Shown: one piece after another, positions 38,051 through 43,498 of the stretch
Layout of the letters: the number at the start of each line of letters is the position of its first letter
Numbering within the stretch: position 1 is the stretch's first letter
Source: Candidatus Methylacidiphilales bacterium
Lineage (GTDB): Bacteria > Verrucomicrobiota > Verrucomicrobiia > Methylacidiphilales > JAAUTS01
Assembly: GCA_028713655.1 (NCBI GenBank)
Contig: JAQTNW010000013.1
Span: 1 to 64,000 of the forward strand
Length of the DNA stretch: 64,000 nucleotides
Reading direction: 5' to 3'
Notes under the pieces: model-generated
Seen by the model: the letters and a program-made list of their open reading frames with translations, nothing else
What the model was told of the DNA's origin: nothing
Database searches by the model: none
Made by a program: the position numbers and the translations under genes

Positions 38051-39151
38051 ATGGATTTTATGATAGCACCGTTGGTTCAACAGAAAACAGTCGAAAAGGT
38101 ACTGATGGGCGGGCGGGTCACTCGTGACGAAGCCCGGGAGTTGTATGATCTGCCTCTGCCCGAGCTTGGGCGGCTGGCGGACGAGCGCCGCAAACAGATC
38201 AAAAAAGGCTCCTATGGCGGGCGCGGGAACGAGATTGTCACTTACATCATCGACCGCAACATCAACTACACCAATGTCTGCAATGTGTATTGCAAGTTCT
38301 GCAATTTTTATAGAACGGAAAAGGATGAAGACGCCTACATTTTGACCCACGGGCAGATCGACGAAAAAATCGACGAGCTGGTGGCATTGGGCGGAACGCA
38401 AATTCTCATGCAGGGCGGGCATCATCCCGATTTGGGAATCGATTTTTATCTGGATCTGTTGGGCCATATCAAAGCCCGCTACCCGCAGGTGAACATTCAC
38501 GGATTTTCACCGCCGGAATTCAATCATTTCGCCTCCGTTTTTAACATGCCAATGGAGGAAGTGATCCGGAGGTTCAAGGAAGCGGGTTTGGGCAGCATTC
38601 CCGGCGGCGGCGGAGAAATTCTGGTCAACCGGATACGGGAACGGATTTCGCCCTTGAAATGCGACGCGGACCAGTGGCTTCGCGTGATGGAACTGGCGCA
38701 CGCGCAGGGTTTGAATTCCAGCGCCACAATGATGTTCGGCCATGTGGAAACGGTCGATGACCGGCTGGAGCATTTGCAGCGCTTGCGCGACCTGCAGGAT
38801 CGCACGCACGGCTTCACCGCTTTTATCTGCTGGACCTTTCAGGCGGAGGGCACTGTCTTGAAGGCGGAGACGGTGGGTTCGCACGAGTATCTGCGCATGC
38901 AGGCGCTGGCGCGCATCTTTTTGGACAATTTTGATAACGTTCAGGCTTCCTGGGTGACGCAGGGGCCGCAGATCGGACAGGTGGCGCTCAAATTTGGCGC
39001 CAACGACTATGGCAGCCTGATGATGGAGGAAAATGTGGTCTCGCAGGCGGGGGCGAGCTTCCGTCTGACCTTGGATGACATCAAACGCCATATCACGGCA
39101 GCCGGCTACGAACCCCACCAGCGCAACAACTGGTATCAGTTGTTGAATTAG
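38051..39151 (+). CDS. mqnC: Cyclic dehypoxanthinyl futalosine synthase (radical SAM)
   Basis: Radical SAM enzyme that cyclises dehypoxanthine futalosine in the futalosine route to menaquinone. 366 residues. The cluster cysteines are C77, C81 and C84 in YTNVCNVYCKFCNFYR, followed by EDAYILTHGQI, GGTQILMQGGHHPDLGID, HGFSPPEFNHF and SIPGGGGEILVNRIR, a string specific to MqnC rather than CofH or MqnE. No other mqn gene is in the window. Menaquinone by this route implies respiratory metabolism. Confidence 0.92.
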   Translation: MDFMIAPLVQQKTVEKVLMGGRVTRDEARELYDLPLPELGRLADERRKQIKKGSYGGRGNEIVTYIIDRNINYTNVCNVYCKFCNFYRTEKDEDAYILTHGQIDEKIDELVALGGTQILMQGGHHPDLGIDFYLDLLGHIKARYPQVNIHGFSPPEFNHFASVFNMPMEEVIRRFKEAGLGSIPGGGGEILVNRIRERISPLKCDADQWLRVMELAHAQGLNSSATMMFGHVETVDDRLEHLQRLRDLQDRTHGFTAFICWTFQAEGTVLKAETVGSHEYLRMQALARIFLDNFDNVQASWVTQGPQIGQVALKFGANDYGSLMMEENVVSQAGASFRLTLDDIKRHITAAGYEPHQRNNWYQLLN

Positions 39152-40747: not shown

Positions 40748-42421
40748 TCAAGAAAGAATGGAATCAGCCAGCCGGTTCACGGCGCTGAGCACGGCTTTGA
40801 TTGACGCCAGTTCGATGCTGGTATCCACCCCGGCGCCGAAGGCGGTCTTGCCGTTTTTGTCCCGGACCTGGATGTACGCAATGGCGCTGGCTTCAGCCCC
40901 GGAACCCAGTGAGTGCTCGGAGTAAAAAACCACCTCGAACGGTTTTGCGCCCGCAGTTGTCAGGCCATGCACAAAGGCCGCTATCGGCCCGTTGCCTTCG
41001 CCGGTGACATCGATCCGCTTGCCGTCCTTCAAAACCGTCGCGCGGCAGCGCAGCAGTCCCTTGGTTCCGTCGGCATGGAAATGCTCCAGCACATAAGGAG
41101 CACGGCGCTCGATGTATTCCTTCCAGAAAAAGGCGCGCAGTTCCGAGGCATCGACTTCGCGCCCCAGCCGATCCACTTCCTCATTGGCCAGCTTGCCAAA
41201 CTCAATCTGCAGCGGTTTGGGCAGATAAATGCCGTATTCGCTTTCCAGCAGATACGTGATGCCGCCCTTGCCGGACTGGCTGTTGACGCGGATGACCTCG
41301 CTGTATTCGCGAGTGATGTCGGACGGATCGATGATGAGATAGGGCACGTCCCAAAGGCCGTCCCTGGATTTTTTCATCGCGGAAAAACCCTTCTTGATCG
41401 CGTCCTGGTGTGAGCCGGAGAAAGCCGTAAAGACCAACTCGCCGCCATAGGGCTGGCGGGCCGGAACTTCCATTCCCGTGCAGTGCTCGTACACCTCGCG
41501 CAGGCGGGGGAGATCCTTCAGCTTCAATCCGGGTGAAATACCCTGCGTGTACAAATTCAACGCGACGGTGACGATGTCCAGGTTGCCGGTGCGCTCGCCG
41601 TTGCCGAACAAGGTGCCCTCGACCCGTTCCGCGCCCGCGAGCAAGGCCAGCTCGGTCGCCGCCACGCCGGTGCCGCGGTCGTTGTGCGTATGCACGCTGA
41701 TGATGACCGATTCCCGGTTTTTCAAATGGCTGATGAACCATTCGATCTGGTCGGCATAGACGTTGGGCATGGCCACTTCAACCGTGTCTGGCAGGTTCAG
41801 GATCATTTTTTTGTCAGGAGTCGGCTGCCAGACGTTCATGACAGCCTGGCAGACTTCCAGGGAGAATTCGACTTCGGTGGCGGAAAAGCTTTCTGGTGAA
41901 TATTGAAAAACCACATCCGTCCCTATCAGGCGTGGCACGCGGTCCTTGATCCATTGCGTACCGCGGACGGCCACCTGCACGATGTCAGGCTTTTCCATGC
42001 CGAACACGATGCGGCGTTGGGCGGGCGATGTGGAGTTGTAGAGATGAATGATGGCCTTTTTGGCGCCGGTCAGCGATTGTACCGTGCGTTCGATCAATTC
42101 CTCACGCGCCTGCACCAACACTTGGATCGTGACGTCGTCCGGGATGCGGTTTTCCTCAATCAAGCGGCGCATGAATTCAAATTCGGTGTTGGAAGCGGCG
42201 GGGAATCCCACTTCGATCTCCTTGAAGCCGGTTTTGACCAGGGCATCGAAGAACTCCAGTTTCTGCGCGACATTCATGGGAATGGGCAGGGCCTGGTTGC
42301 CGTCGCGGAGATCGACGCTGCACCAGATGGGGGCGCGTGAAAGCGTGCGTGTGGGCCATTGGCGGCCGGGCAGGACGACCGGCGGGAAAGGCCGATATTT
42401 TTTGCTGGGGTCTGTTATCAT
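40748..42421 (-). CDS. leuA: 2-isopropylmalate synthase (long form)
   Basis: Condenses 2-oxoisovalerate and acetyl-CoA, the first committed step to leucine. 557 residues, the long form also found in fungi and some bacteria. Catalytic opening SVDLRDGNQALPIPMN, metal/substrate segments GFKEIEVGFP and ISVHTHNDRGTGVAA, GTLFGNGERTGNLDIV, and a C-terminal regulatory domain of about 110 residues (VTGEGNGPIAAFVHGL) for leucine feedback. A leucine-rich leader ORF lies about 110 bases upstream. The start ATG (42421) follows a run of T residues. Confidence 0.94.
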   Translation of the reverse strand: MITDPSKKYRPFPPVVLPGRQWPTRTLSRAPIWCSVDLRDGNQALPIPMNVAQKLEFFDALVKTGFKEIEVGFPAASNTEFEFMRRLIEENRIPDDVTIQVLVQAREELIERTVQSLTGAKKAIIHLYNSTSPAQRRIVFGMEKPDIVQVAVRGTQWIKDRVPRLIGTDVVFQYSPESFSATEVEFSLEVCQAVMNVWQPTPDKKMILNLPDTVEVAMPNVYADQIEWFISHLKNRESVIISVHTHNDRGTGVAATELALLAGAERVEGTLFGNGERTGNLDIVTVALNLYTQGISPGLKLKDLPRLREVYEHCTGMEVPARQPYGGELVFTAFSGSHQDAIKKGFSAMKKSRDGLWDVPYLIIDPSDITREYSEVIRVNSQSGKGGITYLLESEYGIYLPKPLQIEFGKLANEEVDRLGREVDASELRAFFWKEYIERRAPYVLEHFHADGTKGLLRCRATVLKDGKRIDVTGEGNGPIAAFVHGLTTAGAKPFEVVFYSEHSLGSGAEASAIAYIQVRDKNGKTAFGAGVDTSIELASIKAVLSAVNRLADSILS

Positions 42422-42496
42422 AAAAAAACCATTAAAATGTTAAGTTAGTAAATTAAGCAAGTCATTAAGTCAGGCTATGCGAAAAACCGTCGGGAG

Positions 42497-42523
42497 AAAA
42501 GCCTGGAGCTCGAGGAGCTGGGC
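42497..42523 (-). terminator. Putative attenuator hairpin in the leuA leader
   Basis: On the transcribed strand GCCCAGCTC, CTC, GAGCTCCAGGC folds with GCC/GGC and AGCTC/GAGCT pairs, then TTTT. It begins seven bases past the leader-peptide stop. The 3' arm (GAGCTCCAGGC) can also pair with GCCCTGGACTC inside the leader ORF, giving the alternative fold needed for attenuation. No terminator strength can be computed here. Confidence 0.45.
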
Positions 42524-42529
42524 GGCGCG

Positions 42530-42604
42530 TTATAAAAGCAGACCGTACCGGCTCTGGAGTCCAGGGCGGCTAAGTCGTGCGAGAGCGGTATAACGCGTGT
42601 GCAT
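42530..42604 (-). CDS. Leucine-rich leader peptide upstream of leuA
   Basis: A 24-codon ORF too short for ordinary prediction. It starts MHTRYTALARLSR and ends GLLL directly before TAA; six of 24 residues are Leu, with codons CTC, CTT, CTC, CTG, CTT, TTA. Runs of the end-product amino acid before the stop are the hallmark of leu/ilv leader peptides, where ribosome stalling sets downstream RNA folding. A hairpin followed by TTTT comes next (42497-42523). The ribosome site is weak (AAAGAATAAATC before ATG). Confidence 0.6.
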   Translation of the reverse strand: MHTRYTALARLSRPGLQSRYGLLL

Positions 42605-42739
42605 GATTTATTCTTTATTAACGCGGCAAATCGGGTATGTCAAGGAGCAGATGACCAACGTCTTTTGAACCACGGATGGACGCAGATAAACGCGGATATG
42701 AAAGGCTAGGCCTGAGATTTGAAACTGAAAACTTGCAAC

Positions 42740-43498
42740 TTGAAACTTCACCCTTCCAGGTTTTGTACATTCCTGAATTATGCCGCACTTGTGCTGCTGC
42801 TTTCCGCATCCATGGCGGGAGTGCAGGCAGCGCCACCCACGGTGGAGCAGGTGAAGGAATTGCGCCAGAGGTATGAGCAGGCAATCCGACTCTACCAGGA
42901 AGGAGAGTATAGCAAATCTATAGAGCTTTTCGAGCACAATCTCGCCGTAGATTCCGCGTCGAAGGGTTCGCTGCTTTTTTCCGGGCTGGCTTATCTGCAA
43001 CTGGGCCAGTTTGAAAAGGCTGATGAACGATTCGTCCGATTTCTCAAATTGGAGCCTCTGAATGAAGTCGGCTTGATCGGCGCGATCAAAGCCAGGCAGA
43101 CGCTCGGCCAAGCCGCTGAGGTGGAACGCCTGCGGAAAATTTTGCAGGACGAACGCGATTCCGGAAAAAATCCCAGGTTGAATGCCCTCCTCAGCTATGA
43201 GCGCCAGACGATTCGGCTTCCCGATGGCTCGCAAATTTCCATCCTGGAAAATCTGGATAAAAACGGGACGTATGTGTGGGCGTATTTACTGGTGGCTTCG
43301 GACAAAAAAGTGGTCAAGAGAAGGCTGGAGCTGGCGCCAGCCCCGCCGGAAACCGCCGGAGTGAAGTTTTTGCTTGGGGAAGTGCAAAGCGAAGGCGGGA
43401 AAACGACGGGCTACAAGATCCACCGTTTTTACACGGCGCTGCCATCGTTTGAGAAGGCGCGCGAAGAAGCGGTGAAGCTGTTGGAAAGTAAGCAGTAA
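42740..43498 (+). CDS. Exported TPR-like protein
   Basis: About 252 residues. The hydrophobic LNYAALVLLLSASMAGVQA is a signal peptide. A tetratricopeptide-like pair follows (AIRLYQEGEYSKSIELFEHN and FSGLAYLQLGQFEKADERFV), then an unassigned C-terminal part. No ATG precedes the signal sequence; starts are TTG at 42740 or 42719, or the ATG at 42812 without a signal. The upstream bases belong to a spacer repeat (TTGAAACTGAAAACTTGC), so the start is unsure. Confidence 0.65.
   Translation: MKLHPSRFCTFLNYAALVLLLSASMAGVQAAPPTVEQVKELRQRYEQAIRLYQEGEYSKSIELFEHNLAVDSASKGSLLFSGLAYLQLGQFEKADERFVRFLKLEPLNEVGLIGAIKARQTLGQAAEVERLRKILQDERDSGKNPRLNALLSYERQTIRLPDGSQISILENLDKNGTYVWAYLLVASDKKVVKRRLELAPAPPETAGVKFLLGEVQSEGGKTTGYKIHRFYTALPSFEKAREEAVKLLESKQ

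Follow-up and report, generated by a model that had tools for sequence, protein, structure and literature searches.

Does a short, leucine-rich open reading frame (ORF) in front of a verrucomicrobial leuA belong to a leucine attenuator and, if so, which of its codons would sense leucine and which RNA helix would end transcription? The ORF lies on the minus strand of the 64,000-nt stretch of DNA analysed here (the window), 183 nt upstream of a long-form leuA and between this gene and a divergently oriented gene on the plus strand. The relevant features, by position in the window, are:

40748-42421, minus strand: leuA, long-form 2-isopropylmalate synthase (TIGR00970), the presumed regulated gene
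42492-42500, minus strand: T-tract TTTTCTCCC after the 3' arm, read from the sequence
42501-42511, minus strand: 3' arm of the proposed terminator, GAGCTCCAGGC, assigned by its pairing with the arm in the ORF
42501-42523, minus strand: competing local hairpin GCCcAGCTC-CTC-GAGCTccaGGC, -8.3 kcal/mol alone, the terminator of the original prediction
42526-42534, minus strand: 3' arm, including the leader stop codon, of a 9-bp alternative helix that crosses the ORF helix
42530-42604, minus strand: leader ORF MHTRYTALARLSRPGLQSRYGLLL, predicted, 24 codons, ATG at 42604 and TAA at 42532-42530
42557-42567, minus strand: 5' arm of the proposed terminator, GCCCTGGACTC, inside the ORF, pairing with 42511-42501; the same helix is found in the relatives L005, L006 and L007
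42571-42577, minus strand: in-frame heptamer CGA CTT A, identified by conservation; CTT is codon 11, the proposed control codon
42589-42597, minus strand: 5' arm of the 9-bp alternative helix (CGCGTTATA/TATAACGCG), crossing the ORF helix
42615-42620, minus strand: candidate -10 element TAATAA, 17-nt spacer, 3/6 match to TATAAT
42638-42643, minus strand: predicted -35 element TTGACA of the leader promoter, from sequence and conserved spacing
42719-43498, plus strand: gene for a TPR-like protein, divergent from leuA

The leader ORF carries six Leu codons among its 24 (CTC8, CTT11, CTC16, CTG22, CTT23 and TTA24) and ends Leu-Leu-Leu-stop, running from ATG 42604 to TAA 42530 just as the original prediction had it. 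Its other readings of the sequence were accurate as well: a hairpin (42523-42501, -8.3 kcal/mol) followed by the T-run TTTTCTCCC is present after the ORF, GCCCTGGACTC in the ORF (42567-42557) is an alternative pairing partner for the 3' arm of this hairpin, GAGCTCCAGGC (42511-42501), and the downstream gene is a long-form leuA, with its product scoring 718.6-718.9 bits against TIGR00970 (cut-off 697.4). A purine-rich Shine-Dalgarno site was sought before the leuA ATG at 42421, and none is visible in the sequence. Five tRNA-Leu genes were read in the genome, one each of TAA, CAA, TAG, GAG and CAG, and the leader CTT codon would be decoded by the single tRNA-Leu(GAG). The 400 nt before ilvB and before leuC in the same genome contained neither CGACTT nor a comparable leader. 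Elsewhere in the window, a VapC-family PIN-domain ribonuclease gene (TIGR00028; 40022-40426, plus strand) is convergent with leuA, and mqnC (TIGR03699) of the futalosine route to menaquinone lies at 38051-39151 on the plus strand.

Taken alone, the window is weak evidence for regulation, because the stability of the whole leader region is unremarkable (folding z = -1.25) and a simple, strict terminator scan of the window gave no match. The pattern TTGAC-ATG-CGACTTA was found at only two places in the window's genome including this leader, and a reversed-pattern control also gave two matches. Unremarkable folding and pattern scans are what one would see if the ORF were accidental and the 5' leader unregulated, and the counts in relatives contradict that explanation. 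Regions upstream of leuA were gathered within the family, order and phylum of the genome, as well as from named genomes, and 99 unique verrucomicrobial regions were counted; leaders were sought by promoter spacing only, as a TTGAC 34-45 nt before the ATG of an ORF of 7-45 codons. An ATG-led short ORF anchored in this way was present in 53 of the 99 regions, whereas 60 sets of dinucleotide shuffles gave 2.6 on average and never more than 8. This comparison overstates independence since the regions are related, although their peptides and flanks are diverse. Leu made up 25% of the codons in these leaders and 9.5% in shuffles. With ORF, promoter spacing and the heptamer described below all conserved far above shuffles, I consider a chance ORF extremely improbable. 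On this comparative evidence, which is strong, the predicted leucine leader ORF before leuA is real and conserved, and putative leucine leaders of this kind are common before leuA in Verrucomicrobiota.

The promoter spacing also indicates where the transcript would begin. The TTGACA starts (42643) 39 nt upstream of the leader ATG, and the distance from TTGAC to the leader ATG was 35-44 nt in 40 of 46 leuA leaders. Because this conserved distance places the start within a few nucleotides of the ATG, the leader ORF is probably leaderless, with a transcript start expected 0-5 nt before the ATG. A strict promoter scan of the window picked up neither the leader promoter nor the candidate -10 element.

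Comparison of the leaders brought out a heptamer as the conserved part of the ORF. CGACTTA occurred in 49 of the 99 verrucomicrobial regions (shuffles: mean 1.7, maximum 5), and among the 82 upstream regions outside the window's order it was the commonest 7-mer of all (33, shuffles 1.6). When ORFs were picked by promoter spacing without any search for the heptamer, 38 of their 49 Arg-Leu pairs were written CGA-CTT and followed by A; in the window's genes, CTT accounts for 15% of Leu codons and CGA for 6% of Arg codons. The residue after the Arg-Leu of the heptamer is variable (Thr, Ser, Ile, Lys or Arg), so that selection appears to act at the level of codons or RNA. The leader peptides of relatives from the same family (MIARILPTARLSRPDLRGRPAL, MIARILPTARLSRPDLQGRRAG and MITRTLMLTRLSRPDLLGRPAL) end in PAL-stop, RAG-stop and PAL-stop; the terminal Leu-Leu-Leu run is missing from them, and their conserved Leu is the CTT of codon 11. 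A check of conservation upstream of leuA in relatives, as had been suggested, thus gave a split answer: the ORF is kept (53 of 99 regions) and CTT11 is conserved, while the terminal Leu run is not kept.

Beyond the phylum, an in-frame CGACTTA also precedes leuA in Sphingomonas and other Alphaproteobacteria (CTTCGACTTATCCGCCCTTAG, peptide end RLIRP) and in two Nitrospirae. The CGACTTA of Ktedonobacter (L053) is out of frame and was treated as chance. Some verrucomicrobial lineages lack the heptamer, and seven of these have leaders ending LLP-stop. This second leader type, without CGACTTA and with a Leu-Leu-Pro-stop end, was seen in L163, L168, L174, L180, L181, L182 and L185 (e.g. MNVAAFRHLLGSVLLP).

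The RNA helices were compared at the level of the family, where the structure is defined by four sequences, those of the window and of L005, L006 and L007. In each of the three relatives, the ORF segment (C)CCTGAC after CGACTTAGC pairs with GTCAGGG, which is followed by ATTTCTTTT, TTGCCGCTTTTT and CGTTCTTTT, respectively. The window counterpart of this helix is CCTGGA/TCCAGG, with two pairs differing on both sides. Because the helix between ORF and 3' arm abuts or nearly abuts the U-tract in L005-L007, and no local hairpin of comparable strength is found there, it looks most simply like the terminator itself and not like an antiterminator. The window's ORF helix has two bulges, and it competes with the local hairpin and with the 9-bp alternative helix, which joins codons 3-6 to the stop region and has analogous, shorter or shifted equivalents in L005 and L006. 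The window's putative intrinsic terminator, a hairpin plus TTTTCTCCC that a strict scan did not report, is clearer in L005 and L007. Both helices are possible in the window, so the hairpin assignment made originally may hold there.

Such an assignment amounts to classical two-hairpin attenuation, with the local hairpin (42523-42501) as terminator and the ORF:3'-arm helix as antiterminator, set by stalling at Leu codon 8 or codons 22-24. Without a ribosome the local hairpin is indeed favoured in the window (0.99), and the ORF helix is favoured (0.86-1.00) for A-site positions from codon 6 to codon 10, among them Leu CTC8. However, the ORF helix is just as favoured at the stop codon (0.93), which would leave leucine-rich cells ON unless release is fast; in addition, no comparable local hairpin exists in the close relatives, where the U-tract comes after the ORF helix, and neither CTC8 nor the terminal Leu run is conserved. 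I therefore regard the two-hairpin arrangement as rather unlikely.

Ribosome positions were modelled with a mask that extended from the first base of the P site 12 nt upstream and 14 nt downstream, which is an approximation, and with pairing of the 3' arm as readout. Modelled pairing was high as long as the A site lay at early codons. Once CTT occupied the A site, this pairing went from 0.99 to 0.43, from 0.72 to 0.36 and from 0.99 to 0.39 in the three relatives and from 0.72 to 0.60 in the window, and at the stop codon it stood at 0.99, 0.72 and 0.98 in the relatives and 0.84 in the window. When the sequence downstream of the heptamer was shuffled, a switch as large as the real one arose in 4, 7 and 1 of 300 shuffles for L005-L007 and in 28 of 300 for the window. 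The switch in this genome, from 0.84 at the stop codon to 0.60 at CTT in the model, is thus predicted to be weaker than in its relatives. Stalling modelled at codons 22-24 gave terminator-arm pairing of 0.84, 0.73 and 0.83, similar to the stop codon (0.84), so the terminal Leu run can hardly discriminate; control by this run is supported neither by these values nor by the peptide ends of the relatives.

The reading I favour, and hold to be somewhat probable, is that of a ribosome-mediated leucine attenuator of leuA that works by direct ribosome occlusion of the terminator. Transcription would start no more than a few nucleotides from the leader ATG, and the 24-codon leader would be translated without a Shine-Dalgarno site. 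The ribosome would then read CGA CTT A, with CTT11 decoded by tRNA-Leu(GAG). If charged tRNA-Leu were scarce, it would wait at CTT, where its leading edge would cover the 5' arm of the terminator just downstream; the terminator could not close, and RNA polymerase would read on into leuA. With leucine plentiful, the ribosome would be at the stop codon or gone, leaving the 5' arm free to pair with 42511-42501, and the closed terminator would end transcription at about 42500-42497. No separate antiterminator would be required. The leader ORF, promoter spacing, heptamer and the predicted ORF:3'-arm helix of the relatives come from sequence comparison, and from them I infer stalling at CTT, termination of transcription at this site and leucine as the signal. 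One conserved Leu codon is a small number by the standards of classical attenuation, which counts against the mechanism; it also raises a testable question, namely how one Leu codon in a fixed context could suffice. As for the layout of classical amino-acid attenuation that had been claimed, a conserved leucine leader with, probably, an attenuator and a plausible promoter remains, while the roles of the hairpins are probably reversed, given the position of the ORF helix at the U-tract in L005-L007.

In the literature, which was covered incompletely, no paper was found that joins Verrucomicrobiota and leuA leader-peptide attenuation, in line with the original prediction, which knew of no described example. 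The classical proteobacterial leucine attenuator (leuA of E. coli and Shewanella; RF00512; PMC2659441) has in common with the window family a Leu-codon leader ORF, alternative helices, a U-tract and leuA as the target. The principle is shared but the sequence is not, and an Rfam search of the window, at the gathering threshold and at E<=5, returned neither Leu_leader RF00512 nor any other match to the leader. The window family differs by its one conserved, proposed control codon in a fixed heptamer, by a putative terminator whose 5' arm lies inside the ORF, and by a mechanism that would need no separate antiterminator. A leaderless leader ORF at the 5' end of the transcript that is part of an attenuator is also a property of Sinorhizobium meliloti peTrpL (PMC10117765), although that system concerns tryptophan and trpE and is unrelated in sequence.

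Closest in layout is the actinobacterial LEU element (Seliverstov et al. 2005, PMC1262725; Streptomyces lividans LeuL1, PMC8079986), where leuA is likewise preceded by a short leader ORF with Leu codons. The S. lividans LeuL1 leader is leaderless and without a typical Rho-independent terminator, and in the published pseudoknot of the LEU element, Leu codons are paired with the Shine-Dalgarno site of leuA (PMC1262725, PMC8079986). LEU-type leaders were seen in Nonomuraea (MLRGLLLSCRGGGL) and Microbacterium (MQFGLLLLSCRDESSD), which have runs of at least three Leu codons and CTTAGCTGCCGCG in place of CGACTTA; the heptamer was not present in the three actinobacterial examples read. Whereas a conserved Leu run is the control site of the LEU element, the window family lacks such a run and conserves a single CTT. 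Unlike the LEU element, the window has no Shine-Dalgarno site before the leuA ATG (42421) with which Leu codons could pair, and the window family has a predicted intrinsic terminator that the LEU element lacks. The present leader would extend leucine attenuation to Verrucomicrobiota, and its informative feature is the fixed in-frame heptamer beside a hairpin, not a Leu run; TTGAC, ~39 nt, ATG and CGACTTA make a simple pattern for annotating such leaders.

Across lineages, CGACTTA usually has a hairpin within ~5 nt downstream. Among 62 leaders, 77% had their strongest stem starting 7-16 nt from the first base of the heptamer, most often at 10-12 nt, compared to 33% in shuffles; this spacing result rests on the whole set, as the window's own stem was no better than shuffles (0.57). 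In Opitutaceae, the stem GCGCACGATC/GATCGTGCGT together with an inner helix has 8 pairs changed on both sides and 96.4% of cells paired, and 0 of 500 shuffles were as good. No U-tract follows this heptamer-adjacent stem, and a second, downstream hairpin has T-runs in some members. Sphingomonas leaders also combine the heptamer with a hairpin that is not followed by a U-tract; direct terminator occlusion therefore cannot be the general mechanism. Antiterminator logic gave mixed results in other clades, with L048, L067 and L208 losing a local terminator near the heptamer or its Leu codons and L018, L020, L023, L077, L131 and L134 showing no such loss, and for this reason no single mechanism is claimed for all of them.

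The many hairpins without a U-tract, and the crossing helices of the window, L005 and L006 that could form a pseudoknot, would suit translational or protein-mediated control as proposed for the LEU element, in which a hairpin or pseudoknot gates access to leuA or serves as a protein-binding site, and the T-tract would play no part. I rate this very unlikely here: no Shine-Dalgarno sequence that could be sequestered is visible at the leuA start of the window, and in the nearest relatives the helix is followed by U-tracts. Alternatively, the in-frame CGACUUA (Arg-Leu) might itself halt the ribosome, possibly with the hairpin ~5 nt downstream, so that arrest and not mere shortage of charged tRNA-Leu is regulated. 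The heptamer is kept across phyla even at its synonymous positions and at the base that opens the following codon, and its hairpin is tightly spaced, which speaks for such a signal; the varying residue after Arg-Leu argues against a strict peptide motif, however, and the 25% Leu of the leaders fits plain leucine sensing, which makes arrest distinctly unlikely. Classical attenuation alone does not explain the heptamer-plus-hairpin found across phyla, which is the more interesting part. Tentatively, and with some doubt, CGACUUA and a hairpin ~5 nt later might be a cross-phylum signal of long-form leuA that the ribosome reads at the level of codons and RNA, not as a Leu run, with lineage-specific outputs (an intrinsic terminator, or a hairpin without U-tract). 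If true, this would be a distinct class of leader-peptide element.

Several individual leaders were also recorded. In those of Opitutaceae leuA (L130-L160), CGACTTA-NNNNN-GCGCACGATC...GATCGTGCGT is a structured RNA of high conservation and strong covariation, and a scan of L151, L153, L154 and L160 against Rfam gave no match to it. In Sphingomonas and relatives (L075, L101, L102, L103, L108 and L113), an in-frame CGACTTATCCGCCCTTAG precedes leuA, and the leader stop codon lies inside a stem of up to 16 bp without a U-tract. A Pelagibius-like MAG (L092) carries CGACTTA twice before one leuA, in frame within each of two tandem short ORFs that lie 346 and 183 nt upstream of the gene.
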